DNA of 38,873 nt from Succinivibrio sp. (lineage in GTDB: Bacteria > Pseudomonadota > Gammaproteobacteria > Enterobacterales > Succinivibrionaceae): NCBI GenBank assembly GCA_017469335.1, contig JAFUGP010000184.1:1-38873 (forward strand), in the 5' to 3' direction. Both the position numbers and the translations under genes were made by a program. This document shows positions 4,871 to 36,377 of the stretch, one piece after another (the stretch's first letter is position 1; each line of letters begins with the position of its first letter). Under the pieces are notes generated by a model. The model saw only the letters and a list, made by a program, of their open reading frames with translations, had not been told where the DNA came from and did no database searches.

Positions 4871-7489
4871 TTGAAAAGCAAAAGCAAATATCAGGCGGTA
4901 CGCCGGGCCGACTATAAGGCCCCGGCTTTTCTGACGCCGAGCATCAACCTTACCTTCGAGCTTTCCGATGATCATACCGTGGTACGCAGCAGCGCCCGCT
5001 ATAAGCGGGTGGGCCGGGGGGCGCTGCGCTTAAACGGCGAGGGACTCACCCTCAAGTCACTGCGTTTAGACGGCACGGTGTGCAAGTACAAGACGGAGAA
5101 AAACGGCGATCTTATCTTGGAGGACGTGCCCGACGAGTTTGAGCTGCAGATAGAAAACGAGATCTCGCCTATCGCCAACACTGAACTCATGGGCCTGTAC
5201 AAGTCCAACGGTACCTACTGCACGCAGTGTGAGCCCGAGGGTTTCCGGCGCATCACCTATTTTCAGGACCGTCCCGATGTGCTCTCCCGCTTCAAGGTCA
5301 CCATCCTGGGTCCCGAGTATGGCTGCGGGGTGCTGCTCTCCAACGGCAATCTCGTCGACAGCGGCACCCGTGACGGCCGGCAGTACGCGGTGTGGGAGGA
5401 TCCTTTCCCCAAACCCTGTTATCTGTTCGCGCTGGTGGCCGGTACCTTTGACATTCTCAACGACAGTTACACCACCAAGAGCGGCCGCAAGGTGCAGCTC
5501 TCTCTTTACGTGGATCGCGGTGCCATCGAACGCGCGCCCTGGGCCATGGAGTCCATCAAGAGCGCCATGCGCTGGGATGAGGAGCGCTGGGGACTGGAGT
5601 ACGATCTGGACAATTTCAAGGTGGTGGCCGTGGACTTCTTCAACCAGGGTGCCATGGAGAACAAGTCCCTCAACATCTTCAATTCCATCTATGTGCTGGT
5701 AGACAAGCACTCCGCCACCGATCGGGCCTTCTTCAATGTGCAGAGCGTGATCGGGCACGAGTACTTCCACAACTACACCGGGGATCGGGTTACGCTGCGT
5801 GACTGGTTCCAGCTCTCCCTGAAGGAAAGCCTTACGGTATTCCGCGATCAGGAGTTCAGCTCGGATGTGGCCTCCCGTACGCTGACGCGCCTGGAGGCGG
5901 TCAATGTGATCCGCGGGGCACAGTTTGCCGAGGACGCAAGTCCCATGGCCCATCCGGTGCGTCCCGATGAGGTCATGGAGATGAACAATTTCTATACCGT
6001 GACCATCTACGACAAGGGTGCCGAGATCATCCGCATGATCCATACCCTGATAGGTGAGGAGGCTTTTGCCGCGGGATTGCGTCTGTACCTCAAGCGTTTC
6101 GACGGCCAGGCGGTGACGGTGGATGATTTTATCGGCAGCATGCAGGAGGCCTCGGGTTTTGACTTCACTGCCTTCATGCGCTGGTACAGTCAGCGCGGCA
6201 CCCCCCGGGTTGAGGCCGGGTGGCAGCATCAGGGAGGGCAGCTGCAGCTTGAGTTAAAGCAGAGTTTGGTCGATCCGGTCACGGGCAGGGAGCTTTTGCC
6301 CATGGTGATCCCGCTGCGCGCCTCGCTTCTGGATAAGGCGGGGCAAAAGGTTCAGGCCCCGGAGTTGCCGCAAAACGGCGTACTGGTTTTGCAGGAGCCT
6401 GAACAGAGCTTCAGCTTCAGCGTACCCGAGGGCACGCTGCCGGTGCTGCTCGAGGATTTCTCCGCTCCCGTAAGACTTAAGGCTCCCTACAGCGCCGAGG
6501 ATTACGTGCGCATGCTTGCCCACAGCGAGGATCCCTTTATCAAGGCCGACGCCTCCTTCCAACTGCAAAGCCGCTATGTGTATGACTGCCGCGCCGCCGA
6601 CGGCAGTTATAAGACGCCCGAGAGTTTTATTGAGGCCTGTGCGCGGCTGTTGGAGGGGCTTGGCGTGGAGGATGATCTCATCACCGCCGCCGCCGGACTT
6701 AAGGTGCAGACTCTGCAGACTTTGATGGAGACTGAGGCGCACATCGACTTAGATGCCCTGGAGGCGGCCCGCCGTGAGCTGCAGGGGCAGAGCGCGGTGG
6801 CCCTCTATGATCACTATCGGCGCGTTTATCGCGACATCCGAGCCATCTCCGATGAGTACAGCATGCAGAACCTCAGCAGGCGCAGCCTCAATCTCACCGC
6901 CTTGCACATGCTCTGCGTGGCGCTGTGCCGTAAGGAGCGTGCGGAGGATGCCGCCGCTCTGGTCGAGGAGCATTACCGGGGCCATCAGAATATGACCGAT
7001 CAGCTGGCCGCCTTAGGTGAGGCGGTGCATCTTAAGCTGCCCAACGCCGCAAAATTACTGGATATTTTTGAACGGCGCTGGAGCGGCGATCCCCTGGTCT
7101 TTGACAATTTCTTCAGGCTGCAGGCCACGGTGCCGGAGATTGAAACCGTCTTTGAGGTGCGTAGGCTGCTTTCGCATCCGCGCTATGATCAGAGCAATCC
7201 CAACCGCATCCGCGCTCTGCCCGGGGCCATGATCCTGCAAAATCCGGTGGCGTTGCACCGTCCGGACGGGGCCGGGTACAAACTGGCCTATGACATCATC
7301 GCCGCACTCAACTCCAGCAACACCATGATGGCCGCGCGACTGCTTACGCCGCTTTTAAGTTTCCGGCGCTTTGACGGGAAAAGACAGGAGCTTATGCGCA
7401 CGCAGCTAGGCAGTCTGCTCAAACTGCCAGATATCGCGCGCTCGGTTTATGAGAAGGTTCAGGCGGCTTTGCAGGTCAAGGAGTCCTAG
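4871..7489 (+). CDS. pepN: Aminopeptidase N (M1 family)
   Basis: This cytoplasmic zinc metalloprotease removes N-terminal residues from peptides. Its 872 residues match E. coli PepN (870). The exopeptidase signature GAMEN is at 260-264 and the zinc site HEYFH at 296-300, with the third ligand Glu in KESLTVF about 20 residues later. The Ig-like and C-terminal helical domains follow (DUF3458-type). The start is TTG with a purine-rich GAGGTGGGAG about 7 nt upstream; no better start is visible. The stop codon overlaps the next start by one base, so it is translationally linked to the DUF2835 gene and probably to pyrD. Confidence 0.95.
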   Translation: MKSKSKYQAVRRADYKAPAFLTPSINLTFELSDDHTVVRSSARYKRVGRGALRLNGEGLTLKSLRLDGTVCKYKTEKNGDLILEDVPDEFELQIENEISPIANTELMGLYKSNGTYCTQCEPEGFRRITYFQDRPDVLSRFKVTILGPEYGCGVLLSNGNLVDSGTRDGRQYAVWEDPFPKPCYLFALVAGTFDILNDSYTTKSGRKVQLSLYVDRGAIERAPWAMESIKSAMRWDEERWGLEYDLDNFKVVAVDFFNQGAMENKSLNIFNSIYVLVDKHSATDRAFFNVQSVIGHEYFHNYTGDRVTLRDWFQLSLKESLTVFRDQEFSSDVASRTLTRLEAVNVIRGAQFAEDASPMAHPVRPDEVMEMNNFYTVTIYDKGAEIIRMIHTLIGEEAFAAGLRLYLKRFDGQAVTVDDFIGSMQEASGFDFTAFMRWYSQRGTPRVEAGWQHQGGQLQLELKQSLVDPVTGRELLPMVIPLRASLLDKAGQKVQAPELPQNGVLVLQEPEQSFSFSVPEGTLPVLLEDFSAPVRLKAPYSAEDYVRMLAHSEDPFIKADASFQLQSRYVYDCRAADGSYKTPESFIEACARLLEGLGVEDDLITAAAGLKVQTLQTLMETEAHIDLDALEAARRELQGQSAVALYDHYRRVYRDIRAISDEYSMQNLSRRSLNLTALHMLCVALCRKERAEDAAALVEEHYRGHQNMTDQLAALGEAVHLKLPNAAKLLDIFERRWSGDPLVFDNFFRLQATVPEIETVFEVRRLLSHPRYDQSNPNRIRALPGAMILQNPVALHRPDGAGYKLAYDIIAALNSSNTMMAARLLTPLLSFRRFDGKRQELMRTQLGSLLKLPDIARSVYEKVQAALQVKES

Positions 7490-7719
7490 TGTACGGTTAC
7501 AGCAACTTCTACTTTTCCATCAGTATGAGCAAGGAGCAGCTGCTGGCGGTGTACTCCGGCTCGATCCGCCGGGTGAGGGTGCGCACCGAAAGCGGCATGG
7601 TGCTGGACATAGATGCCGAACACCTCAAGAATTTCACTACCATGGACGGCATACACGGGCGCTTCAAGCTGACTGTCGACTCGCGCAACCGTTTTGTCAG
7701 TCTGAACAAGATAGGCTGA
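7489..7719 (+). CDS. DUF2835 family small protein
   Basis: A 76-residue protein starting with GTG, whose G is the last base of the pepN stop codon. The sequence (FYFSISMSKEQLLAVYSG; VRVRTESGMVLDID; HGRFKLTVD) matches the gammaproteobacterial DUF2835 family of about 70-80 residues, which has no assigned role. It contains no membrane segment or metal motif. Its place between pepN and pyrD, with tight spacing, indicates one operon. Recognition is from pattern memory. Confidence 0.8.
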   Translation: MYGYSNFYFSISMSKEQLLAVYSGSIRRVRVRTESGMVLDIDAEHLKNFTTMDGIHGRFKLTVDSRNRFVSLNKIG

Positions 7720-7728
7720 GGAGCATAC

Positions 7729-8754
7729 ATGCTGTACAACCTCTATCCGCTGTTGCGGCCGTTGCTGTTTGCGCAGGATGCCGAGCAGGCTCATGAAGAA
7801 GTGCTGAAACTGGCCGCCCGGGCCTCCCGTTACCCCAAAATGCTGGAACTGCTCGCGCAGAAAGCGCCGCCCCGGCCCTGCGAGGTGATGGGACTTAAAT
7901 TTCAAAACCCGCTGGGACTGGCCGCCGGGCTGGATAAAAACGCCGAGGCCGTGGACTATTTCGGGGCGCTGGGTTTTGGTTTCATTGAGGTAGGGACGGT
8001 CACGCCGCGCCCGCAGGAGGGCAATCCGCGTCCCAGGCTGTTCAGACTGCCTCAGGCTCAGGCCCTTATTAACCGCATGGGGTTTAACAATAAAGGCGTG
8101 GAGTATGTGGCAGCGCGCCTCAAGGAGCGCTCCTACCGGGGAGTCTTGGGGGTGAGCATCGGTAAAAACGAGGACACCAAACTTGAGGAGGCGGCCTCAG
8201 ACTACCTTTCCTGCATGGACGCGGTCTATCCCTATGCCGACTATATCGCGGTCAATATCTCCTGTCCCAACACTCCCGAGCTGACGCAGCTGCAGGAAGA
8301 GCGGCGCAGCCTGCAGCTGCTGAAAACCCTCAAGGAGCGGCAGGGCACTCTGGCGGCACGCTACGAAAAATACGTACCGCTGGTGGTGAAGATCGCCCCT
8401 GATTTGACTGAGGAGCAGTTAAACGCGCTCCTGGACAACTGCCTGGAAGTCAAGATAGACGGTTTGAACTGTACCAACACCACCCAAAGCCGCGAGCTGG
8501 TGCATGGTCTTACCCATGCCGCCGAGAGGGGCGGTCTGTCGGGACAGCCGCTGCGCTCTCTGAGCAACCGCATCTTAAAGACGGCCGCGGAGCGCTGCGC
8601 CGGCCGTCTGGCTCTGATTGGCTGCGGCGGGGTGGACAGTGCCACCGCCGCCCGGGAGAAACTGCACTCAGGCGCACAGCTCATACAGCTCTATACCGCA
8701 CTGATCTACCAAGGACCGCAACTGGTCCTGGACATCTTAAAAAGTCTTAGCTGA
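7729..8754 (+). CDS. pyrD: Dihydroorotate dehydrogenase, quinone-linked (class 2)
   Basis: PyrD oxidises dihydroorotate to orotate in pyrimidine synthesis and passes electrons to quinones at the inner membrane. The 341 residues and the N-terminal amphipathic segment (MLYNLYPLLRPLLFAQDAEQ) are class 2 features. The FMN-barrel motifs are clear: PLGLAAGLDKNAEAVDYF, GTVTPRPQEGNPRPRLFRL, NRMGFNNKG. The catalytic-base loop reads NISCPNTPEL, with Cys179 where class 2 enzymes normally carry serine and class 1A enzymes carry cysteine. A TGAGGAG site lies 4-5 nt before the ATG, 9 nt after the DUF2835 gene, and a terminator follows. Confidence 0.94.
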   Translation: MLYNLYPLLRPLLFAQDAEQAHEEVLKLAARASRYPKMLELLAQKAPPRPCEVMGLKFQNPLGLAAGLDKNAEAVDYFGALGFGFIEVGTVTPRPQEGNPRPRLFRLPQAQALINRMGFNNKGVEYVAARLKERSYRGVLGVSIGKNEDTKLEEAASDYLSCMDAVYPYADYIAVNISCPNTPELTQLQEERRSLQLLKTLKERQGTLAARYEKYVPLVVKIAPDLTEEQLNALLDNCLEVKIDGLNCTNTTQSRELVHGLTHAAERGGLSGQPLRSLSNRILKTAAERCAGRLALIGCGGVDSATAAREKLHSGAQLIQLYTALIYQGPQLVLDILKSLS

Positions 8755-14427: not shown

Positions 14428-14446
14428 CAAACGGGTGGAGGTACAG

Positions 14447-16984
14447 GTGAGCAAGTTAGCCCCATTGAGCAGACGCAGCCGGCTGATGGTAGCGGTACTG
14501 GGGGTGGCCCTGGTGCTGTCGGTGGTGGCGGCGCTGCTCATCACCAGAGTCAACAGTTACATCAACTCCTATCTCTTAAACCAGGTCGCCGCTCAGGCTG
14601 AGTCTTACACCGTGTCGGTGCAGGAGAGTCTGCAAAAGGCCCTGTCCAATCTGGCCGTCACCGGTGAGAAACTGCCGATCCTCGATGAGGTGACAAGCGC
14701 CGCGGAGTTTTTGCAGTCAGGCGGCTCCTTCACCACCGGACTGCAGGATGCCGAGGATCATTCCGCCACCAGGAGACTGCTGCCGCGGGGCGAATACCCG
14801 GAGATCAATTCCGCCTTCAAGGGAAACAGCGCGGTGGGCTATCACCGCGAGACCGGGCTCTTGTTCGCCGTGCCGGTCTACAACGGCAGCTCTGCCGTCA
14901 AGTTCGTGCTGTACGGACATTATGCCGCACCGGCCGAACGCAACATCTTTCTGCCCAAAAGCTTCGGCGGCCGCGGCATCGTCTGTCTGCGCACGGTGGA
15001 AGGAGCCATGGCGGTCTCCCCGCAGAATCAGGAGCGCTACGAGGAGCTCATGCATGATGATGAAATCATCAAGGCCATCGACTCTCTGTCTCACCGCCTC
15101 GACCGCCGCGAGAGCGAGGCGCGATTTGTCAGCTCCAAATCCGGCAACTTCTACATCTTTGAGGGCATGGTGCCGCATACCCGTCTCATGGTCAGCGGCA
15201 TTGTCTCGGCCGATTACCTCAACTCCCATTTCTCCGGTCTGACCACCATCTTTCTGGCGGTGTTCAGCGTGCTCCTGGTGCTCATCGCCGGCGGACAGCT
15301 CATGATGCACTTAAGCTACATCAGGGCCGAGCGCAAGATCTTTTTGGAGGAACAGCGCGACTTCGTGGAGCGCTGCCTAAAGAGCATGAGCGCCCCGGTC
15401 ATCGAGATCGTGGATTTGAGCCATACCATCGCCCAGAGCAGTGAGAACGAGGAGATCAGACGGCAGGCCGCGGCCATCGACGAGCGCAGCCGCGAGATCC
15501 TAAACAGCATCGAGCAGCTGCGTCAGGAGGCCCAGCTGCAGCAGGAACTGCCCGAGGCCGAGGAACATCTGTATACCGTCTCCAATCTGGTGGAAGCCTC
15601 CTTTTTGGGCATGGAGACGGCGGTGCCCAAGCCGCAGCTGCGCTTAGCCCCCGGCATGCCCGCCATGCTGCTGGGCGATGAGCAGAGCATAGGGCGGCTG
15701 CTCAACAGTACCTTGCGTTTAGGCGAGCGCAGCGCCCCGCGCAGCATCACCCTCAAGTTTGAGACCGAGCCCGTGAACGAGTCTCGTGTCAGGCTCATCG
15801 CCGAGGTGGCCGTACGCGGCGGCAGCTTTGATGCCCAGGCGGTGGCCAATCTGCAGAACACCCTGCAAAACCGCGCCCTCAAGCTCACCGAGCTCGACAG
15901 CGGCACCATGGCCTTTGTGCAGGGCTGCCGTCTCATGGAAAACATGGGCGGCGAGTACTCCTTGGGCACGCTCTCGGGGGGCGGTTTTGATTACAAGTTC
16001 GAGATAGAGCAGGGGATCAAGCCCCAGAGCACTGCGCACAGGGCAGAGCCCGGCGGCAAAGCCGAGGCACAGGCGCAGGCCCTTGAGCAGGGCGATGATC
16101 TCTCCTGGCGCAGCCTCGCGCTTATTTTGGAGAGCAAGGCCGACAAGGCCGCCGCCGAGGCCAGCAGACTTAAATCCCGCGGCATCTCCCCTGAGGTCTG
16201 CACCGACCGCCTGAGAGCGCTGCAGGCCTTAAAGATGCGCCGTTACGGCATGCTTATGGTCAACGCGGCCATGTTAAGCGACGCCGAGCTGTTGGAACTC
16301 AACGAACTGCGCTCCGGCTCAGGCAAGCACAAGAGCACTCACCTGGTGGTGTACGGCCGCCCCATCTCCGAACAGTTAAAAGAGCTGCTCTCGCGCGGCG
16401 GTACCGTGGATGTGGTGCATGTCGAGGGCGCCAAACCCAAGGTAAAGAGTGCCGCTCCCGCCGCCCCGGCCCCGTCTCCGGCACCTGCCCAGGTGCCGGC
16501 CGCAGCTGCGGTGTCTGTGGAAGAGAGCACTTCAGAGAGTGACGAGGTGGTAAGCCTGGAGGATGAGAAGGCCTCGGGCATGGGCTTTAAGAAGTCCCAG
16601 GGACTTAAGTTTGCCGCAGGCAATGAGGCGCTTTATCAGAAATTCAAGCTGATGTTTGCCCAGAGCGCGCACAAGCGTTTGGAGAAGGTGCAGCGCAACT
16701 TCGAGAGTCAGAGCTGGAGCAAGTACGCCTCGCAGGTCGGCGCACTGGGCAAGGCAGCCGCCTCGGTGGGGGCGCAGCGTCTGAGCGCGCAGTGTCAGGA
16801 GCTGGAGCGGGCGGCCCGGGACATCCTGACCGAGGTCTCCCCCCCGGCCAAGAAGGTCAGCTACATTACCATTCACCACAACGAGATGATCGATCTCCTC
16901 AAGGACACCATCGCCTTCATCGAGGAGAATCAGGCCGGGGCGCTGCCCGGGCAGAGCCCCGCCGCGCAGGGGCCCTCATCGTGA
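14447..16984 (+). CDS. Membrane-bound degenerate hybrid histidine kinase (pseudokinase)
   Basis: The layout is that of a hybrid sensor kinase: TM about 13-34, a periplasmic domain (FAVPV at 140-144), TM about 262-285, a coiled helical region, an ATPase-like fold, a receiver-like fold, an Ala/Pro linker and a C-terminal helical bundle like Hpt. The key residues appear lost. The HisKA position MSHE reads MSAP (Ala316). The GxGL ATP lid reads GTMA. The receiver Asp aligns with Asn606 and its acidic pair is gone. The Hpt His aligns with Gly765. It probably regulates or scaffolds the active kinase at 20010 rather than signalling by phosphotransfer. The chosen GTG has GGAGGT 5 nt upstream; that GTG overlaps a possible GTG at 14435. 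The alignment is by eye. Confidence 0.75.
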   Translation: MSKLAPLSRRSRLMVAVLGVALVLSVVAALLITRVNSYINSYLLNQVAAQAESYTVSVQESLQKALSNLAVTGEKLPILDEVTSAAEFLQSGGSFTTGLQDAEDHSATRRLLPRGEYPEINSAFKGNSAVGYHRETGLLFAVPVYNGSSAVKFVLYGHYAAPAERNIFLPKSFGGRGIVCLRTVEGAMAVSPQNQERYEELMHDDEIIKAIDSLSHRLDRRESEARFVSSKSGNFYIFEGMVPHTRLMVSGIVSADYLNSHFSGLTTIFLAVFSVLLVLIAGGQLMMHLSYIRAERKIFLEEQRDFVERCLKSMSAPVIEIVDLSHTIAQSSENEEIRRQAAAIDERSREILNSIEQLRQEAQLQQELPEAEEHLYTVSNLVEASFLGMETAVPKPQLRLAPGMPAMLLGDEQSIGRLLNSTLRLGERSAPRSITLKFETEPVNESRVRLIAEVAVRGGSFDAQAVANLQNTLQNRALKLTELDSGTMAFVQGCRLMENMGGEYSLGTLSGGGFDYKFEIEQGIKPQSTAHRAEPGGKAEAQAQALEQGDDLSWRSLALILESKADKAAAEASRLKSRGISPEVCTDRLRALQALKMRRYGMLMVNAAMLSDAELLELNELRSGSGKHKSTHLVVYGRPISEQLKELLSRGGTVDVVHVEGAKPKVKSAAPAAPAPSPAPAQVPAAAAVSVEESTSESDEVVSLEDEKASGMGFKKSQGLKFAAGNEALYQKFKLMFAQSAHKRLEKVQRNFESQSWSKYASQVGALGKAAASVGAQRLSAQCQELERAARDILTEVSPPAKKVSYITIHHNEMIDLLKDTIAFIEENQAGALPGQSPAAQGPSS

Positions 16985-17039
16985 TCTTAAGCTGCGTTAG
17001 GGGGAATGTGGCCGCCTTTCACATAGGGGAGTTTGTACC

Positions 17040-17465
17040 ATGATTGATCTAGAAAACGTCAATATCCTGATCGTGGACGATGATGAGCTCATGCTCTCCA
17101 TGGCCCGGGAGATGCTGGTGCAGCGTCTGCCCTACAAGGTGCACGTGGCCGGCAGCGGTGCCGAGTGCCTGAGCATCTTAGGCCGCAAAACCCCGCATAT
17201 CGATCTTATCCTGATGGATGTCTACATGCCCGGCATGGACGGTTTTCAGACTCTGACCAAGGTCAGGCAGCTGCACGGTTACGAGAAGGTGCCTACCGTG
17301 CTGCTGACGGCGGCCTCCGATCGCGACACGGTGGCCAACGCTCTGAAGATGAAGGTCTCAGGGTATATCAAAAAGCCCTTTTTTGCCAACCAGTTAGCCG
17401 AGAAAGTGGCCACGGTGATCATGAACGAGGCCCTAGGAATGGACGATGAGGACGATGAAGACTGA
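17040..17465 (+). CDS. CheY-like single-domain response regulator
   Basis: The 141 residues form one receiver domain. Acidic pocket Asp13-Asp15, phosphoacceptor Asp60 (LILMDVYMPGMDGF), switch Thr90 (LLTAAS) and Lys112 (KKPF) are all present, so phosphorylation is expected. A short acidic tail follows (DDEDDED). There is no output domain, so it is probably a phosphate shuttle or sink, or acts by binding a partner. GGGGAG lies about 9 nt before the ATG, 55 nt after the pseudokinase gene. Confidence 0.92.
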   Translation: MIDLENVNILIVDDDELMLSMAREMLVQRLPYKVHVAGSGAECLSILGRKTPHIDLILMDVYMPGMDGFQTLTKVRQLHGYEKVPTVLLTAASDRDTVANALKMKVSGYIKKPFFANQLAEKVATVIMNEALGMDDEDDED

Positions 17466-17516
17466 CTCAGGTGAAAAAACGCCTTGTTTTGGTGCAAAAT
17501 TTTATGACAGTTGAAT

Positions 17517-17544
17517 TTGATATTTTAAGTACAAACAATATGTT
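17517..17544 (+). promoter_or_regulatory. Candidate promoter for the HD-GYP/BMP/kinase operon
   Basis: TTGATA, 16 nt, TATGTT in an AT-rich island inside an otherwise GC-rich cluster. It would give the last three genes their own start, with a leader of about 220 nt. Confidence 0.4.
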
Positions 17545-17732
17545 GTATTGCATTTTCAGCTCATGCAGCCTGAACGGCCGTGCCTTACCCCGGGCAGGAA
17601 TTTCAGGGACAGGCGCAGTTGGGCTTAAAATGCCCTTGAAGTGCGCCTGATTAGAACCACAAAAAAGCGCGGAACGCTGCCTGAGGCGGCCGGCCACAGG
17701 GCGGTTTGAACAAGAATAAAGCCAGGAGTGCT

Positions 17733-17786
17733 ATGGCGGCCATTTTTGGCTGCCCAGGCAGCCAACAACATGGACATACAGCTTAA
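17733..17786 (+). CDS. Possible 17-residue leader peptide overlapping the HD-GYP start
   Basis: An ATG with AGGAG 4 nt upstream opens a 17-codon frame (starts MAAIFGCPG) that ends 14 nt beyond the next gene's ATG at 17770. That ATG has no Shine-Dalgarno of its own, so translation of the short frame could feed it. Coding is unproven. Confidence 0.3.
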   Translation: MAAIFGCPGSQQHGHTA

Positions 17787-18888
17787 TCCCGCCCAGACCC
17801 TCATCGTGGCCGTGGACGATGATCCCATCATACTTTTTTTGCTCAAGGAGATTTTCGAGGGCCGGGCCGAACTGGATACCTACAACTCCGGAGATGAGGC
17901 CATGCGCGGCATGATCATGAACGGGCGGGTGCCCGATCTGATTTTGCTCGACTACCTCATGCCGGGACAGAACGGGGTGGAGGTGCTCAAGGAGCTCAGA
18001 AACCACCCTCTGCTCAATGAGGTGCCGGTGGTGCTGCTCACCGGCGATCTGGATACCAAGCTGGAGGCCGAGGTGTTAAGCGCCGGCGCCAATGATTTCA
18101 TCCGCAAGCCCTTCGTGCCGCAGGTGGTGCTCATGCGCGTGGAAATGCTGCTCAAATACCGCAAGCTCAGAAATCACTTGGAGAGCGAGGTGCGCGAGCA
18201 GACCAGGCTTGCCGAGGGCAGGCGCGAGCAGATTGAGCGTATCTTCGAGCAGATGTTGCTTGCGCTGACCAAGACCATCGACGCCAAGGATCTCTACACC
18301 CGCGGCCACTCCCAGCGCGTGGCGCAGTACTCGCGCCTGCTTGCGGCCTTAGACGGCTGTGACAAGCAGCGTCAGCAGGAGATCTACTATATGGGGATGC
18401 TGCACGACATAGGCAAAATCGGCATTCCCGACACCATCATCACCAAGCCTGACAAACTCACCGACGAGGAGTTTGCCAAGGTCAAGTCCCATCCGCAGAT
18501 AGGCGGCGGCATCCTGGACATGATCACCGACTTTCCCGAGCTGGGCGTGGGAGCGCGCTGGCATCATGAGCGTTATGACGGCAAGGGTTATCCCGACGGC
18601 CTCAAGGGTGAGCAGATCCCCGCTCCGGCCCGGCTCATCGCCGTGGCCGACACCTACGATGCCTTGACCTCCCGGCGCAGCTACCGCGACATCCTGCCGC
18701 AGAGCGTGGTGCGCGCGGAGCTGCAGAAGGGCTCCGGCACGCAGTTTGATCCTCACTACGCCGAGCTCATGCTCAAACTTATCGACGCCGACAAGAACTA
18801 CACCATGCACGAACAGCTGCCCGAGGAGGAAGAGAAGGCAGATAACGGCTTGGCTGCGGCTCAGGCGGGAGCGCTCGATCATGCCTAA
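17770..18888 (+). CDS. Response regulator with HD-GYP c-di-GMP phosphodiesterase domain
   Basis: The N-terminal receiver (acidic Asp16-Asp18, phosphoacceptor Asp61 in ILLDYLMPG, Lys in RKPF) is joined by a coiled linker to an HD-GYP domain. The active-site motifs are present: His212-Asp213 (LHDIGKIGIPD), the HHE motif at 265-267 in HHERYDGKGYPDG, and ADTYDAL. Such proteins hydrolyse c-di-GMP, favouring motile over sessile behaviour. An upstream GTG (17728) would add 14 residues, but its AGGA is directly adjacent. The 3' end overlaps the next gene by 8 nt. Confidence 0.9.
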   Translation: MDIQLNPAQTLIVAVDDDPIILFLLKEIFEGRAELDTYNSGDEAMRGMIMNGRVPDLILLDYLMPGQNGVEVLKELRNHPLLNEVPVVLLTGDLDTKLEAEVLSAGANDFIRKPFVPQVVLMRVEMLLKYRKLRNHLESEVREQTRLAEGRREQIERIFEQMLLALTKTIDAKDLYTRGHSQRVAQYSRLLAALDGCDKQRQQEIYYMGMLHDIGKIGIPDTIITKPDKLTDEEFAKVKSHPQIGGGILDMITDFPELGVGARWHHERYDGKGYPDGLKGEQIPAPARLIAVADTYDALTSRRSYRDILPQSVVRAELQKGSGTQFDPHYAELMLKLIDADKNYTMHEQLPEEEEKADNGLAAAQAGALDHA

Positions 18889-20017
18889 GCTGCCCAAACT
18901 GGGCCTGGGCACGGACCGGCAGTTCCGGCTGCTCAGGCTGGCCGTGGGGGTGCTGGTCACGCTGTTGATGCTGGCCATCATCACCGTCATGCTGTTTCGG
19001 GCCGGCAATCCGGTCAACGAGCAGGTGCGCAAGGTCGGTTTCATCATCCCCGGCGAGATCTCCGATCCCGGCTGGTACTCGCTGCAGTATCAGGGCATCA
19101 AAAAGGCCTGCGAGTCCTTCGGCGTGCAGCTTTTGGTGCAGCAGAACGTCAAGGAAGGCACCGGGCAGAGCCGCAAGGCGCTGCGCTCGCTGGCCCGCGC
19201 CGGGGCGCAGTTCATTTACCTGGGACATCACTCCTATCCCGCTGAGGTCAGGGATCTGGTGCTGCAGATGCCGCGTCTCTCCTTTGCCTCCAGCACCTCG
19301 CTGGGGCAGACGCGCAACCTGACCTCCTATTTTGTGCGCCTCTATCAGGCCCGCTATCTGGCCGGGGCGCTGGCGGCGCTGCGCAGCCAGAGCGGGGTGC
19401 TGGGCTATGTGGCCGGCGAGGAGAGCTCCGCGGTCAATATCGGTATCAATGCCTTCACGCTGGGGGCGCAGCGCATCAACCCCGACATTCAGGTCAAGGT
19501 GGCCTGGACCGGGGACTGGGACAATACCGTCCGCGAGCAGGAGCTCACCCGCAGGCTGGTGGAGGAGAACGGCGCGGACGTGGTCACCTACAACCAGAAC
19601 GAGCACTGGGTGGCGGTGGCCGCCGAGGAGCTGGGCGTGGACTATATTTCCTATCAGGAGGTGCTGCCCTTTGACTCCAAGCATAACTTAGGCGCGGTGA
19701 TGTGCCGCTGGGAGCTTTATTACAAGGATGTGGTGCAGCGCTTTTTAAAGGGCGAGGTCAATGCCATCAAGCACCGCTGGCTGGGCATCGAGGACGGCGT
19801 GGTGTGGCTGGAGATTGTCTCCCCGAGCGTAAGCGCGCATCAGCGGCAGATCCTGGGACGGATGCAGCTTGAGATCCTAAACCAAAATTTCATCTTCTCG
19901 GGGGACATCATCGACAACAAGGGGGTGCGGCACTGCTCCAAGAATCAGACCATCAGCGATGATGCCCTGCTGGAGCGTACCGACTATCTGGTAGCGGGGG
20001 CCAGAGTAATTGACTAG
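18881..20017 (+). CDS. Membrane-anchored BMP/PnrA-type periplasmic binding protein
   Basis: A short basic N-terminus and one hydrophobic helix (about 20-39) precede a BMP-family binding fold (VGFIIPGEISDPGWYSLQYQG; ARYLAGALAALRSQSGVLGYV; INAFTLGAQRINPDIQVKV; DVVTYNQNEHWVAVAAEELG). PnrA relatives bind purine nucleosides, usually as lipoproteins feeding ABC transporters. Here no lipobox cysteine and no signal-peptidase site is obvious, so the helix is likely an anchor, and no transporter genes are nearby. The start ATG lies in ATGCCTAA, overlapping the HD-GYP stop, and the stop overlaps the kinase start, so the gene belongs to the signalling operon. A sensing role, as with TorT or LuxP, is my inference. 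Confidence 0.85.
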   Translation: MPKLPKLGLGTDRQFRLLRLAVGVLVTLLMLAIITVMLFRAGNPVNEQVRKVGFIIPGEISDPGWYSLQYQGIKKACESFGVQLLVQQNVKEGTGQSRKALRSLARAGAQFIYLGHHSYPAEVRDLVLQMPRLSFASSTSLGQTRNLTSYFVRLYQARYLAGALAALRSQSGVLGYVAGEESSAVNIGINAFTLGAQRINPDIQVKVAWTGDWDNTVREQELTRRLVEENGADVVTYNQNEHWVAVAAEELGVDYISYQEVLPFDSKHNLGAVMCRWELYYKDVVQRFLKGEVNAIKHRWLGIEDGVVWLEIVSPSVSAHQRQILGRMQLEILNQNFIFSGDIIDNKGVRHCSKNQTISDDALLERTDYLVAGARVID

Positions 20018-22709
20018 CGAGAAAAGACAGCGTACCAGTGCGCAGCGCATTGTCAGCTCCAAGATCCACCTCATCATCGGCGAGGTGGTGTTCATGCTGG
20101 TATTGGTGGCGGGGTTCGGGCGTTTCATGCAAAGCCGCGTGGACACGCTGCTCAACGCCGCTGTGGAGGAGAGCGTCTCCCAGCAGATCGCCGACATGTC
20201 GGTGCTCGCCGAGGAAATGTTCCAGCGCGAGACCGCCGAGCTGCGTTACGCGGCCAACTTCATGGCCAACAACCCCGGCGCGGACACGGAGCGCAAGCTC
20301 ATGGAGGAGCTGGGCAGCACCCGCCCGGGCATCGAGGTGGGTCTGCTGTTTTATGACGGCAGCGTGCATTACGGTCATGAACTGCAGCGCAGCCACTTCA
20401 AGCGCCTGCACGGGGCCTTCCGCGGCGTCGATGTGATCGACTACTCCCCGGGCAACGGTCTGGTCTTTGCCGTGCCGGTGCTGCGCGGGGACAACGTCAC
20501 GGCGGTGATCTACCGCCTCATCTCCGAGTCGCTGCTCCCGGAGATGTTCGGCATCTCCGAGTACCGCTCCAATACCCGCATACTAATCTCCGAGCGCAAC
20601 GGTCAGATCATCATTCCCTATCGCGATTACGAGGAGGAGGACCGCGAGTTCCTCACCGATCCCCAGATTGAGGGCGATTTCGTCAAGGTGCGCTACAAAC
20701 TGCACAGGCACAAGGCGGCGGCGGTCTACTCCGAAGGTCCGAGAGGACGCTACTTCCTGTTCGGTGCCGATCTGCCGCATACCAACTGCTCCATGATAGG
20801 CTACGCGCCCTGGGAGATCATGGCAGGCGGCGTGGCCGGCATTCAGAACCTCATTTTGGGCGTGGGCGGCATGCTGCTGTTGCTCTTTGCCCTCATCAGT
20901 CTGTTTTTGTTCGTCACGCAGGCGCGCAGTCAGGAGAATGACGAATTGCGACGCGCCAACCGCGTGGCCGAGCGCGCCAACCGGGCCAAGAGCGATTTTC
21001 TGGCCAATATGAGCCATGAGATCCGCACGCCTATCAACAGCATGCTGGGCATGAACGAGATGATCCTGCGCGAGTGCCGCGATGAGACCATCCGCGGCTA
21101 TGCCGTCAATCAGGCCCGCGCCGGCGAGGCGCTGCTGACCATTGTCAACGACATTCTGGATGTCTCCAAGATAGAGTCGGGCAAGATGCAGCTGGTGGCG
21201 GTCAACTACTCGCTGCGCACGCTGCTCTTGGACGTGATGGACATGATCAGGGCCCGCGCCGAGCACAAGGGACTGGAGCTTAAACTGAACGCCTCGGCGC
21301 AGCTGCCGGATAACCTGCACGGGGACATGGTGCGGTTGCGGCAGATCCTGGTCAATCTGCTGACCAACGCCGTCAAGTACACCCGCCAGGGCAGTGTGGA
21401 ACTGGAGGTGCGTACCGGCGGCGTGGAGGATAACCGCGTCACCCTCATCTTTGCCGTCAAGGACACCGGCATCGGCATAAAGGAGTCCGATCAGAGCAAG
21501 GTCTTCAACGATTTCACCCGCTTTGATCTCAAAATCAACCGCGATATCGAGGGCTCGGGCCTGGGGCTGGCCATCTGCCACAAGCTGGTGGGCCTGATGC
21601 AGGGCACCATCAGCCTCAAGAGCGTTTACGGGCAGGGCAGCACCTTCACGGTCACGCTGCCGCAGCTCCACAACGATGACTCGGTGGTGGGCGATCTGAG
21701 CAATCAGCGCCGATCCTCAGCCGAGCTGGAGGAAGACCACCGCCCGGCCTTCATCGCGCCCAAGGCCCGGGTGCTGGTGGTGGACGACAACGAGATGAAT
21801 CTTTTGGTGGTCACCAGTCTGCTCAAGCAAAATCAGGTGGTACCGGTGACCTGCGGCGGCGGCAGCGAGTGTCTGCAGCTGCTCAAGGAACAGCCCTTTG
21901 ACGTGGTGCTGCTTGATCACATGATGCCGGTCATGGACGGCATCGAGACGCTGCATCACGCCCTGGAGCTCAAACTTGACCCCAAGCCGCATTTTGTGGC
22001 GCTCACCGCCAACGTCATCGGCAATGCCAAGGAGCGCTACTGCGAGGAAGGGTTTGAGGATTATCTGGGCAAGCCCATTGACTACCGCAGATTGGAGCAG
22101 GTGCTCATGGCCTACCTGCCCGAATATACCAGGCTGGACTACTCTGAGAACAGCGCCAAAGACCAAAACGGTCCGGGTGAGGAGGGAACGGCTGCGGCAG
22201 GAGAGGACAGTTCGGTTCCGGTCAGCGGTGATCTCTCCCCGGCTGCACCGGGCGCGGGCAGCGCCCCAAGCCGCGCGGTACCGGCTGCGGATACCGAGAC
22301 CGGCTACGATCCGCAGCTGGGACTTAAATACTGCGGCGGCATGAAGGAGATGTACGGCAAACTCGCGCACATGTTCTGCTCCATGCATGAGGTCAAGCTC
22401 CGGCAGATAGAGGAGGCGCTGGCCAGTGAAAACTGGAAGGAGTACACCACCTACGTGCACGCGCTCAAATCCTCGGCGCTGGCCATAGGCGGCTGTGCTC
22501 TCTCGCAGGCGGCCAAGGAGCTTGAACTCTCCGGCAAGCAATGTTACGGGGCGGAAGGCAGCAAGCGGGAGCAGGCCGCTCCGCTGGAGTTCATCCGCAC
22601 TCATCACCCGCAGCTGCGGGAACTGTACGCCGCCACCGTGGCGCAGGTAAAGGAGTATCTGGACCAGGAGAGTGACTCCTCTGCCGGGCAGGAGCAGACG
22701 CAGGGGTGA
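20010..22709 (+). CDS. Hybrid sensor histidine kinase with receiver and Hpt domains
   Basis: An 899-residue inner-membrane kinase: TM about 19-36, a periplasmic sensor (FAVPV at 153-157), TM about 280-302, HisKA with His336 (NMSHEIRTPINSMLGM), an ATPase with N box (ILVNLLTNAVKYT) and G boxes (DTGIGI; GSGLGLAI), a receiver with Asp636 (VLLDHMMPVMDG), a Ser/Ala/Pro linker, and Hpt with His817 (YVHALKSSALAIGG). All phosphorelay residues are intact. The TTG start overlaps the stop of the binding-protein gene by 8 nt. Phosphate could pass from the Hpt to the CheY-like protein and the HD-GYP regulator encoded upstream. The periplasmic part resembles that of the pseudokinase. Confidence 0.93.
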   Translation: MTSEKRQRTSAQRIVSSKIHLIIGEVVFMLVLVAGFGRFMQSRVDTLLNAAVEESVSQQIADMSVLAEEMFQRETAELRYAANFMANNPGADTERKLMEELGSTRPGIEVGLLFYDGSVHYGHELQRSHFKRLHGAFRGVDVIDYSPGNGLVFAVPVLRGDNVTAVIYRLISESLLPEMFGISEYRSNTRILISERNGQIIIPYRDYEEEDREFLTDPQIEGDFVKVRYKLHRHKAAAVYSEGPRGRYFLFGADLPHTNCSMIGYAPWEIMAGGVAGIQNLILGVGGMLLLLFALISLFLFVTQARSQENDELRRANRVAERANRAKSDFLANMSHEIRTPINSMLGMNEMILRECRDETIRGYAVNQARAGEALLTIVNDILDVSKIESGKMQLVAVNYSLRTLLLDVMDMIRARAEHKGLELKLNASAQLPDNLHGDMVRLRQILVNLLTNAVKYTRQGSVELEVRTGGVEDNRVTLIFAVKDTGIGIKESDQSKVFNDFTRFDLKINRDIEGSGLGLAICHKLVGLMQGTISLKSVYGQGSTFTVTLPQLHNDDSVVGDLSNQRRSSAELEEDHRPAFIAPKARVLVVDDNEMNLLVVTSLLKQNQVVPVTCGGGSECLQLLKEQPFDVVLLDHMMPVMDGIETLHHALELKLDPKPHFVALTANVIGNAKERYCEEGFEDYLGKPIDYRRLEQVLMAYLPEYTRLDYSENSAKDQNGPGEEGTAAAGEDSSVPVSGDLSPAAPGAGSAPSRAVPAADTETGYDPQLGLKYCGGMKEMYGKLAHMFCSMHEVKLRQIEEALASENWKEYTTYVHALKSSALAIGGCALSQAAKELELSGKQCYGAEGSKREQAAPLEFIRTHHPQLRELYAATVAQVKEYLDQESDSSAGQEQTQG

Positions 22710-24038: not shown

Positions 24039-24401
24039 ATGACACTGATATCTGAAGCTTTTAAACATAGCATTGATGAAGTTCTAGCCAACTGGGATGT
24101 CGAGGAGGCAGAGAGAGTCCGCCGCTCATATGAACGAGCTTGGGAGAAGCGTGTTCTAGAAAAGGGCTTTAAACAGGGCCTTGAACGGGGTTTTAAACAG
24201 GGCTTTGAACAGGGCTTTGAAAAAGGGCGTGAAGAAGAAAAAATCCGTGGAGTGCTTAAACTGCATGATATGAACATGAGCAAGGAGTTTATAGCAGAGT
24301 TTGCCGGTTACAGTCTAAAGAAGGTAGACGAGATCATCGCCGACGCTCAGAAAATAGCGACGGCGACAGCAAATGACGCTGCGCCTGATCAGGAGGGCTG
24401 A
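24039..24401 (+). CDS. Small Rpn C-terminal-like protein (free-standing)
   Basis: A 120-residue protein that matches only the C-terminal part of the preceding Rpn protein: EEAERVRRSYERAWEKR, a repeat region of another sequence (GFKQGLERGFKQGFEQG), and LKLHDMNMSKEFIAEFAGYSLKKVDEIIADAQK. The nuclease domain is absent. The first 20 residues are unrelated to the Rpn protein. AGGAG lies 12 nt before the ATG, a long spacing. It may be a decayed duplicate or a working RpnS-like inhibitor of the neighbour; intact frame and conserved C-terminus favour function. Confidence 0.6.
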   Translation: MTLISEAFKHSIDEVLANWDVEEAERVRRSYERAWEKRVLEKGFKQGLERGFKQGFEQGFEKGREEEKIRGVLKLHDMNMSKEFIAEFAGYSLKKVDEIIADAQKIATATANDAAPDQEG

Positions 24402-33547: not shown

Positions 33548-33673
33548 TCTCACGTACTGTTGCGATCGAGGTAAAAGATTTAACTTTTCAAGGCCTTTAT
33601 AAGGTCAACACCGTACGTGTGAGTGCCGATCTCCATGTTAGAATCAAGCCATGACTGACATATGGAGATTACA

Positions 33674-34684
33674 ATGATTAAAACCTTTCATGTGTTTTCT
33701 GCCGCAGTGGTGGCGGCAGGAACGGCGGCGGCGCTGACCTTCGGGCTAGGTTCCTTCTCTGAGGCTTACGCCGACAACACCTATACCATTGCCGGGGTGG
33801 GCAAACACGGCAGTCCTTGGTTCGTGCGTCACTTCAAGGGCGTGGCCAAGGGCGCGGAGGAAAACGGCATGAGCGCGGTCTACGCGGTGCCGCAGAACCC
33901 CACGCCTGAGGAACAGCTCAAGGTGGTGCAGGACTACGTGGATCAGGGTGTCAATGCCCTCTTGGTAGTGCCCAACAATGCTGAATCCTTAGAAGGAGTC
34001 TTCGAGCAGGCCCGTGCCAAGGGCATCGCCGTGGTAACCCAGGAGTCGCAGGGGCAGAAGAACGCCGACTATGACGTGGAACTGCTCGACAACACCAAGT
34101 TCGGCGAGCTCATGATTGACGATCTGGTCAAAAACGCCGCCCAGAAAAAAGGCTCCTACGCCATCTTCGTGGGCTCTCTGACCGTACCGGCGCACAACAT
34201 GTGGGCCGATGCCGCGGTGGCCCGGCAGAAGCAGGCCTATCCCGATCTCAAGTTCATCGACAAGTTCCCGGTCTCCGAGGATCGCAACGCCTCCAGGCAG
34301 ACGGCCTTGTCCTTAATCGATCAGTACCCCGATCTGCTCGGCATCATCTGTACCGGCTCGGAGGGCGCGCCGGGCGTGTCCATGGCGCTGCGCGAGAAAT
34401 CCCTGGATACCAGCAAATTCGTGCTCATCGGCGTGACCACCCCCAACGTGGCGCGCAAGACCTTAAAGGACGGCTACATGACGGAGGCGGTGCTGTGGGA
34501 TCCCGCCGAGGCCGCCCGGGTGCAGGCTTATGTGGCCAAGCTGGTGTTGGACGGCAAAAGTGATGAGATCAAGGAAGGCTTTGAGGTGCCGGGCTTTGGC
34601 AAGCCCGAGATCCGCGGCCGCGATCTCATCTTCAACATCCCGCTGGTCATCACCAAGGAAAACGTGGACAAATACCACTTCTAA
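33674..34684 (+). CDS. Periplasmic sugar/AI-2-type substrate-binding protein
   Basis: A 336-residue protein with a signal peptide ending near SEAYA-D (about residue 34) and the Peripla_BP_4 fold of ribose, rhamnose and AI-2 (LsrB) binding proteins: YTIAGVGKHGSPWFVRHFKG, ALLVVPNNAESL, VVTQESQGQ, IICTGSEGAPGVSMAL, VLWDPAEAARVQAY. The ligand cannot be told from sequence. GGAG 6 nt before this ATG chooses it over the ATG at 33662. No ABC permease or ATPase gene is adjacent, so it either serves a transporter encoded elsewhere or acts as a sensor protein. Confidence 0.85.
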   Translation: MIKTFHVFSAAVVAAGTAAALTFGLGSFSEAYADNTYTIAGVGKHGSPWFVRHFKGVAKGAEENGMSAVYAVPQNPTPEEQLKVVQDYVDQGVNALLVVPNNAESLEGVFEQARAKGIAVVTQESQGQKNADYDVELLDNTKFGELMIDDLVKNAAQKKGSYAIFVGSLTVPAHNMWADAAVARQKQAYPDLKFIDKFPVSEDRNASRQTALSLIDQYPDLLGIICTGSEGAPGVSMALREKSLDTSKFVLIGVTTPNVARKTLKDGYMTEAVLWDPAEAARVQAYVAKLVLDGKSDEIKEGFEVPGFGKPEIRGRDLIFNIPLVITKENVDKYHF

Positions 34685-34922: not shown

Positions 34923-36377
34923 ATGGAAAGAGCGCTTATGATTGGCAGAGAGGCAGAGCTTGCCTTATTGCAGCGCCGCCTCAACTCGCCTGTTTCTGAG
35001 TTTGTGGCCGTTTACGGCCGCCGCGGGGTGGGCAAGACCTACCTCGTACACCAGCTGCTCGGGGAGCGGCCGGATTTTGAGTATACCGGCAGTTGCCGGG
35101 CCGGCGCCCGGGTGCAACTTAAGCAGTTTCACGCCGCGCTGAAACGCCGCGGCGGAGGTGACACTAAAATCCCGCAGAGTTGGTTTGAGGCTTTTTCTGA
35201 GCTCAAACAATACCTCTTAGGCTTAGGCAAGGACAAGGTGGTAGTGTTCTTAGATGAACTGCCCTGGATGGCTACGGCCAAAAGCTCATTTAAGGCGGCG
35301 CTTGCCTACTTTTGGAATGGCTGGAACAGCAACAGGACTCTCCTCAAACTGGTGGCATGCGGCTCTTCGATCACCTGGATGACAGACAAATTGCTCGGCG
35401 ATCCCGGCGGTCTGTACGGCAGAGTCAGTCGCGCCATTTACCTGGCGCCCTTTACCCTGAGGGAGACCGAGCTTTATCTCAACGAGGTCAAAGGACTGCA
35501 CTATGGCCGCGAGCAGGTGCTGGAGTGCTACCTGAGTTTAGGCGGGATCCCCTATTATCTTGAGCAGCTTAAAGCAGGAAAGTCGCTTGAGCACAACCTT
35601 GGGGCGCTGTTTGGGACCGGGCACTCCCCGCTTGGGGAGGAATTTGAGTTTCTATACCGCAGCTTGTTCAGGAACAGTAACAAGTACCTAAAAGTGGTGG
35701 AGTATCTGGCCCGCAGCCTGTCAGGACGCAGCCGCGAGGAGATTGCCCGGGCGTGCCGGCTTACGGGAGGTGAGCTCAGCATCTTAGCTAAGCTGTGCAA
35801 GGAGGATTTCCTCAGAGCCTTTTTGGTGCCCTATAAAAAAGAGCGCGGTCGCATCTACCATTTGTGCGATCAGCTCTCGTTGTTTTACCTCAGCCAGGTC
35901 AAAGCTGAGAGGAGCAGCGCCGCTAATTTCCGGATGTCGATCTCACAGAGCGATCCTAAGGAGGCCTGGGCTGACTATGCCTTCACGCAGGTGTGCCTGC
36001 AGCATCTGCCTCAGATCAGGCAGGCACTGGGCATTACCGGTGTGCTAAGCAAGGTCTATGCCTGGTCGGTACCGGCACCAAAAGATGAGACTGGCAGCGT
36101 GAGCAGCGCCACGCAACCGGCTCTCATCATCGACAGAGCCGATTCGGTGATGAATTTTTGTGAAATGAAGTACTCTCATGATGAATACGGCATTGATACC
36201 GCCTCTGAGCGCAGCTTGCGAGAGCGGATGGCACAGTTCAGGCGGTCGGTGTCCGGCAAAAAGACCGTGCGCTGCACCTTGATCACGCCTTACGGAGTCA
36301 GACAGGATGAGCACAGCGCTTTGGTGGCCGCTCAGGTACTGCTCGATGATCTTTTCTGCGAAGTTAAGCCCCTATGA
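34923..36377 (+). CDS. AAA ATPase with C-terminal PD-(D/E)XK-like domain (ATPase_2/DUF234 type)
   Basis: A 484-residue protein of the 'archaeal ATPase' group. Walker A is GRRGVGKT at 32-39, Walker B VVVFLDELPW near 105; the sensor segment reads LVACGSSITWM and the lid GRVSRAIYLAPFTLRETELYL. A winged-helix region follows (EIARACRLTGGELSILAKL). The C-terminus has a nuclease-like D...E-x-K pattern (LIIDRADSVMNFCEMKYS). Members occur in mobile and defence contexts; the substrate is unknown. AGAGG precedes the ATG; a second ATG at 34941 lacks a site. Confidence 0.83.
   Translation: MERALMIGREAELALLQRRLNSPVSEFVAVYGRRGVGKTYLVHQLLGERPDFEYTGSCRAGARVQLKQFHAALKRRGGGDTKIPQSWFEAFSELKQYLLGLGKDKVVVFLDELPWMATAKSSFKAALAYFWNGWNSNRTLLKLVACGSSITWMTDKLLGDPGGLYGRVSRAIYLAPFTLRETELYLNEVKGLHYGREQVLECYLSLGGIPYYLEQLKAGKSLEHNLGALFGTGHSPLGEEFEFLYRSLFRNSNKYLKVVEYLARSLSGRSREEIARACRLTGGELSILAKLCKEDFLRAFLVPYKKERGRIYHLCDQLSLFYLSQVKAERSSAANFRMSISQSDPKEAWADYAFTQVCLQHLPQIRQALGITGVLSKVYAWSVPAPKDETGSVSSATQPALIIDRADSVMNFCEMKYSHDEYGIDTASERSLRERMAQFRRSVSGKKTVRCTLITPYGVRQDEHSALVAAQVLLDDLFCEVKPL

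Follow-up and report, generated by a model that had tools for sequence, protein, structure and literature searches.

What does a binding protein of the Bmp family do when its gene overlaps those of a phosphodiesterase and a hybrid kinase? This question is raised by a five-gene cluster in a Succinivibrio sp. genome (assembly GCA_017469335.1; 3.32 Mb, 89% complete, 201 contigs). The stretch analysed, here called the window, comprises positions 1 to 38,873 of contig JAFUGP010000184.1 on the forward strand, 38,873 nucleotides (nt) in all. Based on gene neighbourhoods, co-variation and domain content, we consider it likely that the cluster encodes a phosphorelay triggered by a solute-binding protein, with a cyclic-dinucleotide phosphodiesterase as its output. 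The cluster has the following features.

14435-16984, + strand: HK1, a membrane pseudo-hybrid-kinase of 849 amino acids with dead HisKA, HATPase, receiver (REC) and Hpt domains (open reading frame (ORF), Pfam, sensor profile, alignment)
17040-17465, + strand: CheY-like protein of 141 amino acids, a single receiver domain (ORF, Pfam)
17517-17544, + strand: putative, weak promoter-like match (9 of 12 positions) between the CheY-like and HD-GYP genes
17770-18888, + strand: receiver-HD-GYP phosphodiesterase, ATG at 17770 or alternative start GTG at 17728 (ORF, Pfam, PDB match)
18881-20017, + strand: BMP, a BMP-type (PF02608) binding protein with one N-terminal hydrophobic helix and an AtzT/3s99-like fold, ATG at 18881
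18881-18888, + strand: 8-nt overlap of the HD-GYP and BMP genes
20010-22709, + strand: HK2, an intact hybrid kinase (HisKA-HATPase-REC-Hpt) with a periplasmic double-Cache sensor, TTG start
20010-20017, + strand: 8-nt overlap of the BMP and HK2 genes, TTGACTAG
20127-20849, + strand: periplasmic double-Cache domain of HK2, about residues 40-280 of the model (predicted structure)

The list of ORFs confirmed all five genes of the original prediction and both 8-nt overlaps among the last three; only the start of HK1 moved, to 14435, 14447 being a later in-frame codon. The Pfam domains agree with these assignments: Hpt only in HK1, Response_reg in the CheY-like protein, Response_reg and HD_5 in the third protein, and HisKA, HATPase_c, Response_reg and Hpt in HK2. 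Because the genes overlap, the arrangement suggests that HD-GYP, BMP and HK2 are translationally coupled. Of 49 places where BMP meets the gene of a sensor-bearing partner, 26, including the one in the window, offer a start codon 8 nt ahead of the BMP stop, so such coupling looks widely shared.

BMP gene neighbourhoods and the partner sensor

We compared BMP loci across genomes, starting with the window's family. Bmp matches occurred in 18 of 56 family genomes, and 21 loci were taken from 17 of these; a below-cut-off match in G026, on a 3-kb contig where no BMP gene was called, was left out. A 16S search of six genomes gave a match in G014 alone, a genome of the same genus; a full-length piece there has 85.2% identity to E. 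coli 16S. A same-strand kinase, GGDEF, EAL or HD-GYP gene adjoined BMP in 20 of the 21 loci, and one had neither signalling nor ATP-binding cassette (ABC) genes. The control was six Bmp loci outside the family but in the same taxonomic order, which comprised five BMP-ABC runs, one locus with neither partner and no signalling locus. The expectation that the binding protein works outside ABC transport was thus upheld by its neighbours: ABC genes were beside BMP in none of the 21 family loci, the window's included, and no ABC transporter has been shown to use BMP.

Named genomes were also scanned and gave three relatives, in RUG12289 (filed under Selenomonadaceae), RUG102 (filed under Veillonellaceae) and Halodesulfovibrio; RUG names denote rumen genomes. 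All five loci of the two RUG genomes were signalling loci, and none of the four in Halodesulfovibrio were (two ABC, two neither). Genomes closely related to RUG102 contributed 46 BMP loci, several of them near-copies: 39 were signalling loci, four were ABC, one was both and two were neither; the sites at G097:C11, G102:C16 near 162 kb, G133:C6 and G139:C43 were left out. Signalling BMP loci were thereby identified in about 40 genomes (17 of the family, 2 named, 21 relatives).

The architectures of these loci were read from profiles built on few seeds, with Pfam run on two sets of 20 selected proteins. L144 and L156 have the same order as the window's final three genes (REC-HD-GYP, BMP, kinase); L075 has REC-HD-GYP, REC, two BMP genes and a kinase. 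In genome G016, locus L025 is a tight run of HK1, CheY/REC, BMP and an HK2-type kinase, with no HD-GYP gene. The claimed co-occurrence and gene order therefore stood in part: the pairing of BMP with a kinase and the three-gene order recur, and the exact five-gene set was found only in the window among the compared loci. The proposed tie to cyclic-dinucleotide enzymes was borne out by comparison, as such enzymes recur as BMP partners.

Some loci carried further genes. In L172 the BMP gene (7291-8520) is followed by a gene for a single-Cache chemoreceptor (5532-7277, MCPsignal), a possible use of BMP in chemotaxis. In L031 and L032 a sensor-EAL gene and two BMP genes precede a transketolase gene, with phosphoglycerate kinase and aldolase genes further on in L032; genes of similar size come next in L033, L038 and L083-L085. 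L087 (359-5481) joins REC-HD-GYP, a FIST-domain protein and a hybrid kinase in one run without BMP.

To follow the sensor itself, we built a profile from the part preceding HisKA in 43 kinases encoded next to BMP. This profile also matched HK1, an HD-GYP protein beside BMP in L074 (E 5.5e-82; the frame reaches the contig end) and GGDEF-EAL or EAL proteins beside BMP in L163, L031-L033, L038 and L083-L085, with a weaker match in L034; the matches in L032, L033, L038 and L083-L085 cover only about the first half of the profile. Since loci chosen by BMP are biased, whole genomes were then searched with the sensor alone. The family genomes gave 18 matches, of which 14 were directly beside BMP, two were HK1 genes in such a cluster and two lay elsewhere (G000:C145, locus L086, and a weak one in G063). 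Sixty genomes around RUG102 gave 67 matches, 50 of which (at least 100 bits) entered the linkage count, with BMP within 1.5 kb taken as linked. At thresholds of at least 100, 200 and 250 bits, 39/50, 39/42 and 34/34 were linked; with the 16 matches that are rows of the search alignment removed, the fractions were 23/34, 23/26 and 19/19. Chance as the cause of the neighbourhood was rejected on the locus tallies and this linkage. Among 398 genomes of the phylum, sampled from a larger group, the profile reached E <= 1e-20 only in the window's genome. In L211 (3337-10532), three tandem GGDEF proteins each match the profile.

We then analyzed co-variation in the 38 of 49 adjacent BMP/sensor pairs with complete domains. 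The distance correlation was 0.83 between BMP and sensor, and 0.59 both between BMP and kinase and between sensor and kinase core, so the sensor tracks the product of another gene better than its own kinase core. The kinase, REC and Hpt domains inter-correlate at 0.73-0.85. Without pairs of at least 60% BMP identity, the BMP-sensor value was 0.77 versus 0.51 for sensor and kinase, and the highest BMP-sensor value in 2000 permutations (39 pairs) was 0.23. The BMP gene is thus both beside a kinase gene and co-varying with the sensor of that kinase, one of the patterns by which kinases triggered by solute-binding proteins are recognized.

In a BMP tree of 101 rows, the window's protein belongs to a well supported group of 11 (nine kinase-linked, two linked to c-di-GMP (cyclic di-GMP) enzymes), in which family members and RUG12289 are both represented. 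All 14 rows with an ABC label, those of AtzT and 3s99 assigned in this analysis, lie in one part of 22 rows together with five unassigned and three c-di-GMP-linked rows. Outside this part are 78 of the 81 signalling BMPs; several deep forks are open. Because the window's family mixes with genomes filed under Bacillota, a label taken from two record titles, the tree suggests transfer between phyla.

Candidate ligand, kinases and putative output enzyme

The BMP protein matches Bmp (PF02608) with E 2.4e-39, above the Pfam gathering score, and its single N-terminal hydrophobic helix is a predicted membrane anchor. Counts of the anchor/lipobox pattern were too loose to part signalling from ABC BMPs (lipobox in 15/81 versus 5/12). 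By sequence and by fold, the nearest solved structures are AtzT (6pi5) and 3s99, and the published account of AtzT describes a purine base found or modelled in both (PMC6834077). At the AtzT pocket positions compared (aromatic sandwich Y45 and W194; polar contacts S97, E165, N218 and N220), the window's BMP keeps both aromatics (W, W) and both asparagines but has H for S97 and A for E165. A paralogue in L003 has W, W, S and E, then H and D as in 3s99.

Taken together, this favours a free purine base, or a similar flat heterocycle, over a nucleoside as the ligand. A plain nucleoside was set aside as the likeliest ligand, as the nearest solved structures by sequence and fold bind free purine bases. 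The original prediction of a membrane-anchored PnrA/BMP-type nucleoside fold thus holds for the family, the fold and the membrane helix, and needs revision in that the fold is closer to base-binding members than to nucleoside binders. In L078 (5646-11722), a BMP with a purine-type pocket adjoins genes for a 2-oxoglutarate oxygenase and for molybdopterin hydroxylases of the xanthine dehydrogenase type, a setting consistent with a purine ligand.

As had been proposed, HK2 is an intact hybrid kinase with Hpt: by alignment, its HisKA, HATPase, REC and Hpt domains all have their catalytic residues. The periplasmic part has a predicted double-Cache fold, a long helix with two PAS-like sheets, and structural comparison showed that the model resembles ligand-binding double-Cache domains. 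Its sequence had no match in the PDB up to E 1. LuxQ is absent among the 50 structural matches listed, which excludes nothing. In NCBIfam, TorS was the best match of HK2 and LuxQ the fourth, both under their curated cut-offs (TorS, TIGR02956, 361.9 of 676.5 bits; LuxQ, NF041947, 279.6 of 1200 bits).

HK1 differs. Kinases of this type are recognized by the phospho-acceptor histidine, the N and G boxes, the receiver aspartate and the Hpt histidine. In an alignment with HK2 and four other HK2-type kinases, none of these survives in HK1: the histidines of HisKA and Hpt, the receiver aspartate and the boxes N, G1 and G2 are all gone, so it is dead at every catalytic site, more than the earlier term 'degenerate' implies. 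An active phosphorelay kinase is thereby ruled out, and on these sequences HK1 cannot perform phosphotransfer. The same sites are missing from its relative in L025, along with most of the receiver region. Both reading frames are open, the pseudo-Hpt C-terminal parts share 42% identity, and the adjoining CheY-like proteins are 64% identical. Genome G016, which holds L025, gave the only other clear HK1 match among the 56 family genomes; of the matches of at most 31 bits in G018, G025, G034, G076 and G078, only some were aligned. The simplest reading is that HK1 is probably a non-catalytic regulator. The other receivers of the cluster have their aspartates, read by eye in the translations.

The signature of HD-GYP proteins is an HD motif with HHExxDGxGYP. 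The window's protein has HD and HHERYDGKGYP by eye in the translation, and matches HD_5 with E 1.6e-32 (Pfam). Its top PDB sequence match is a phosphodiesterase of 3'3'-cGAMP (cyclic GMP-AMP; E 3.9e-36), followed by other phosphohydrolases that include 4r8z, named as a cyclic di-GMP phosphodiesterase.

Proposed mechanism and alternative readings

We propose that BMP, tethered in the inner membrane, would close around a small, flat, purine-base-like heterocycle in the periplasm. Linkage and co-variation point to docking on the double-Cache domain of HK2, which would alter HK2 autophosphorylation. Phosphate would pass from the HK2 receiver to the HK2 Hpt and on to the receiver of the HD-GYP protein, probably also to the CheY-like protein, as the intact sites would allow, and the HD-GYP domain would hydrolyse c-di-GMP or possibly 3'3'-cGAMP. 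HK1, which shares its sensor family with HK2 and has no phosphorylation site, would for these reasons probably be a non-catalytic co-receptor that competes for BMP or modulates HK2 or the CheY-like protein.

A broader proposal is possible, and we advance it tentatively. BMP and its own double-Cache domain would form one input module that evolves as a unit and is interchangeable across hybrid kinases, HD-GYP, EAL and GGDEF-EAL proteins. The module would be common to this gammaproteobacterial family and the genomes filed under Bacillota, and would translate a purine-like cue into the level of cyclic dinucleotides; in the window, a dead co-receptor kinase would tune it further.

Several observations weigh against these readings. 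On linkage, the sensor alignment was built from BMP-adjacent sensors, which favours BMP-linked matches, and 11 of the 50 matches had no BMP nearby (GGDEF-EAL proteins in L208 and L209, kinases in L199-L207), which weighs against an obligatory pairing. G000:C145 (L086) is a kinase of the window's own genome that has the sensor and no neighbouring BMP; the sensor therefore does occur without an adjacent BMP. A kinase and a cyclic-dinucleotide enzyme were together in only 2 of 21 contiguous family runs and 18 of 49 in the other set. If BMP and sensor evolve at similar rates, this may have raised their correlation, and the c-di-GMP-linked family BMPs of L030, L035 and L036 group on the ABC side of the tree. 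As to the ligand, the window's pocket is altered at two AtzT contacts (S97 to H, E165 to A); among 81 signalling BMPs, the full purine-type pocket is present in 31 and both stacking aromatics in 57; and, according to a survey, nearly all Bmp-family members of its model bacteria are predicted to bind sugars (PMC9602780). The messenger may be either c-di-GMP or 3'3'-cGAMP, as the best PDB match is a 3'3'-cGAMP phosphodiesterase. We infer the BMP-HK2 contact, the ligand and the phosphotransfer from sequences and models, and, with the genome 89% complete in 201 contigs, there may be an unseen transporter.

Of the alternatives, the one that survives best is that two unrelated signalling units, HK1-CheY and HD-GYP-BMP-HK2, lie side by side. 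A gap of 304 nt, which contains a single weak promoter-like match, separates the CheY-like gene from ATG 17770 of the HD-GYP gene, so the cluster may be split into two transcription units; sites of this 9/12 grade numbered seven across the scanned region against 2.8 in shuffles. That HK1 was otherwise clearly matched in a single family genome also fits separate units. In that very genome, however, HK1, CheY, BMP and HK2 form a tight run from which only the HD-GYP gene is missing, and HK1 has the same sensor family as HK2. Two unrelated units are therefore unlikely. It is also quite doubtful that the HK2 sensor binds its own small ligand in a double-Cache pocket, in the manner of the chemoreceptor PctA, with BMP merely delivering or buffering that ligand: the fold and the sensor-bearing proteins without a BMP neighbour are consistent with direct sensing, but the linkage and co-variation of BMP and sensor speak against this reading. 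It is very unlikely that BMP is just the usual substrate-binding subunit of an ABC importer with genes elsewhere, and sits next to a kinase gene only for co-regulation: the Bmp family is classically ABC-linked, as in five of the six control loci, and the incompletely assembled genome has ten BPD_transp_2 permease matches, but all ten are within 3.5 kb of a Peripla_BP_4 match, no family locus is ABC-adjacent, the sensor's co-variation is stronger with BMP than with the core of its own kinase, and most signalling BMPs (78/81) fall outside the ABC-containing part of the tree.

Elsewhere in the window, the cluster is followed by an Rpn-type PD-(D/E)XK transposase ORF (PF12784, 22875-23906) and a shorter ORF (24039-24401) whose C-terminal part looks similar by eye. 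A Peripla_BP_4 gene (33662-34684) precedes an ATPase_2 (AAA) gene (34923-36377). No BPD_transp_2 permease match was found on the window's contig, and the Peripla_BP_4 gene is possibly a second transporter-less binding protein.

Relation to known systems

Proteins that resemble kinases yet have no kinase activity are known to work alongside a live hybrid kinase or a lone receiver, as in DivL-DivK-CckA and RcsD. HK1 has this theme in common with them; it differs from RcsD in that the Hpt histidine, kept in RcsD, is lost. Control of a live kinase by HK1 through the CheY-like protein, as for DivL, is a conjecture drawn from this analogy. Retained in two genomes, the dead hybrid kinase offers a case of its own in which non-catalytic control of receptors could be tested.

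The hybrid kinases TorS and LuxQ are triggered by periplasmic binding proteins, TorT and LuxP, whose genes adjoin theirs. A binding-protein gene beside a hybrid kinase gene is common to these systems and the window, where the pairing is known from sequence. The window differs in having a Bmp-family binding protein whose membrane anchor is predicted and whose fold is AtzT-like, in that HK2 is below the TorS and LuxQ cut-offs, and in that the run holds an HD-GYP gene. With the nucleoside-binding lipoproteins PnrA and BmpD, BMP shares the Pfam family and the fold. Its nearest solved relatives, AtzT and 3s99, catch purine bases for transport and group on the ABC side of the tree.

Among the matches listed in a search of the open-licence literature, there was no report of a Bmp-family protein triggering a kinase or a c-di-GMP enzyme. 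According to a 2022 review, only SBP_bac_3 of the 27 families of the periplasmic-binding-protein clan had been studied in c-di-GMP networks (PMC8846402). The 2022 survey cited above counts about ten characterised cases of binding proteins that activate sensor kinases, and 13 of 22 binding-protein families known to act on receptors, among which Bmp may be (PMC9602780). The cluster appears to be a novel form of signalling triggered by a solute-binding protein, with a Bmp-type trigger. If the broader proposal is true, a purine-like cue would set cyclic-dinucleotide levels in these bacteria. The roughly 40 genomes with varied outputs make the contact surface, the ligand and the rules of input rewiring directly testable.

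A further parallel is NspS-MbaA of Vibrio cholerae, in which, as a published study describes, a periplasmic binding protein controls an adjacent c-di-GMP enzyme and the coding regions overlap (PMC8967002). The EAL and HD-GYP variants of the BMP modules would work likewise. NspS binds polyamines, whereas the window has a Bmp-type binding protein that would signal by way of a phosphorelay.
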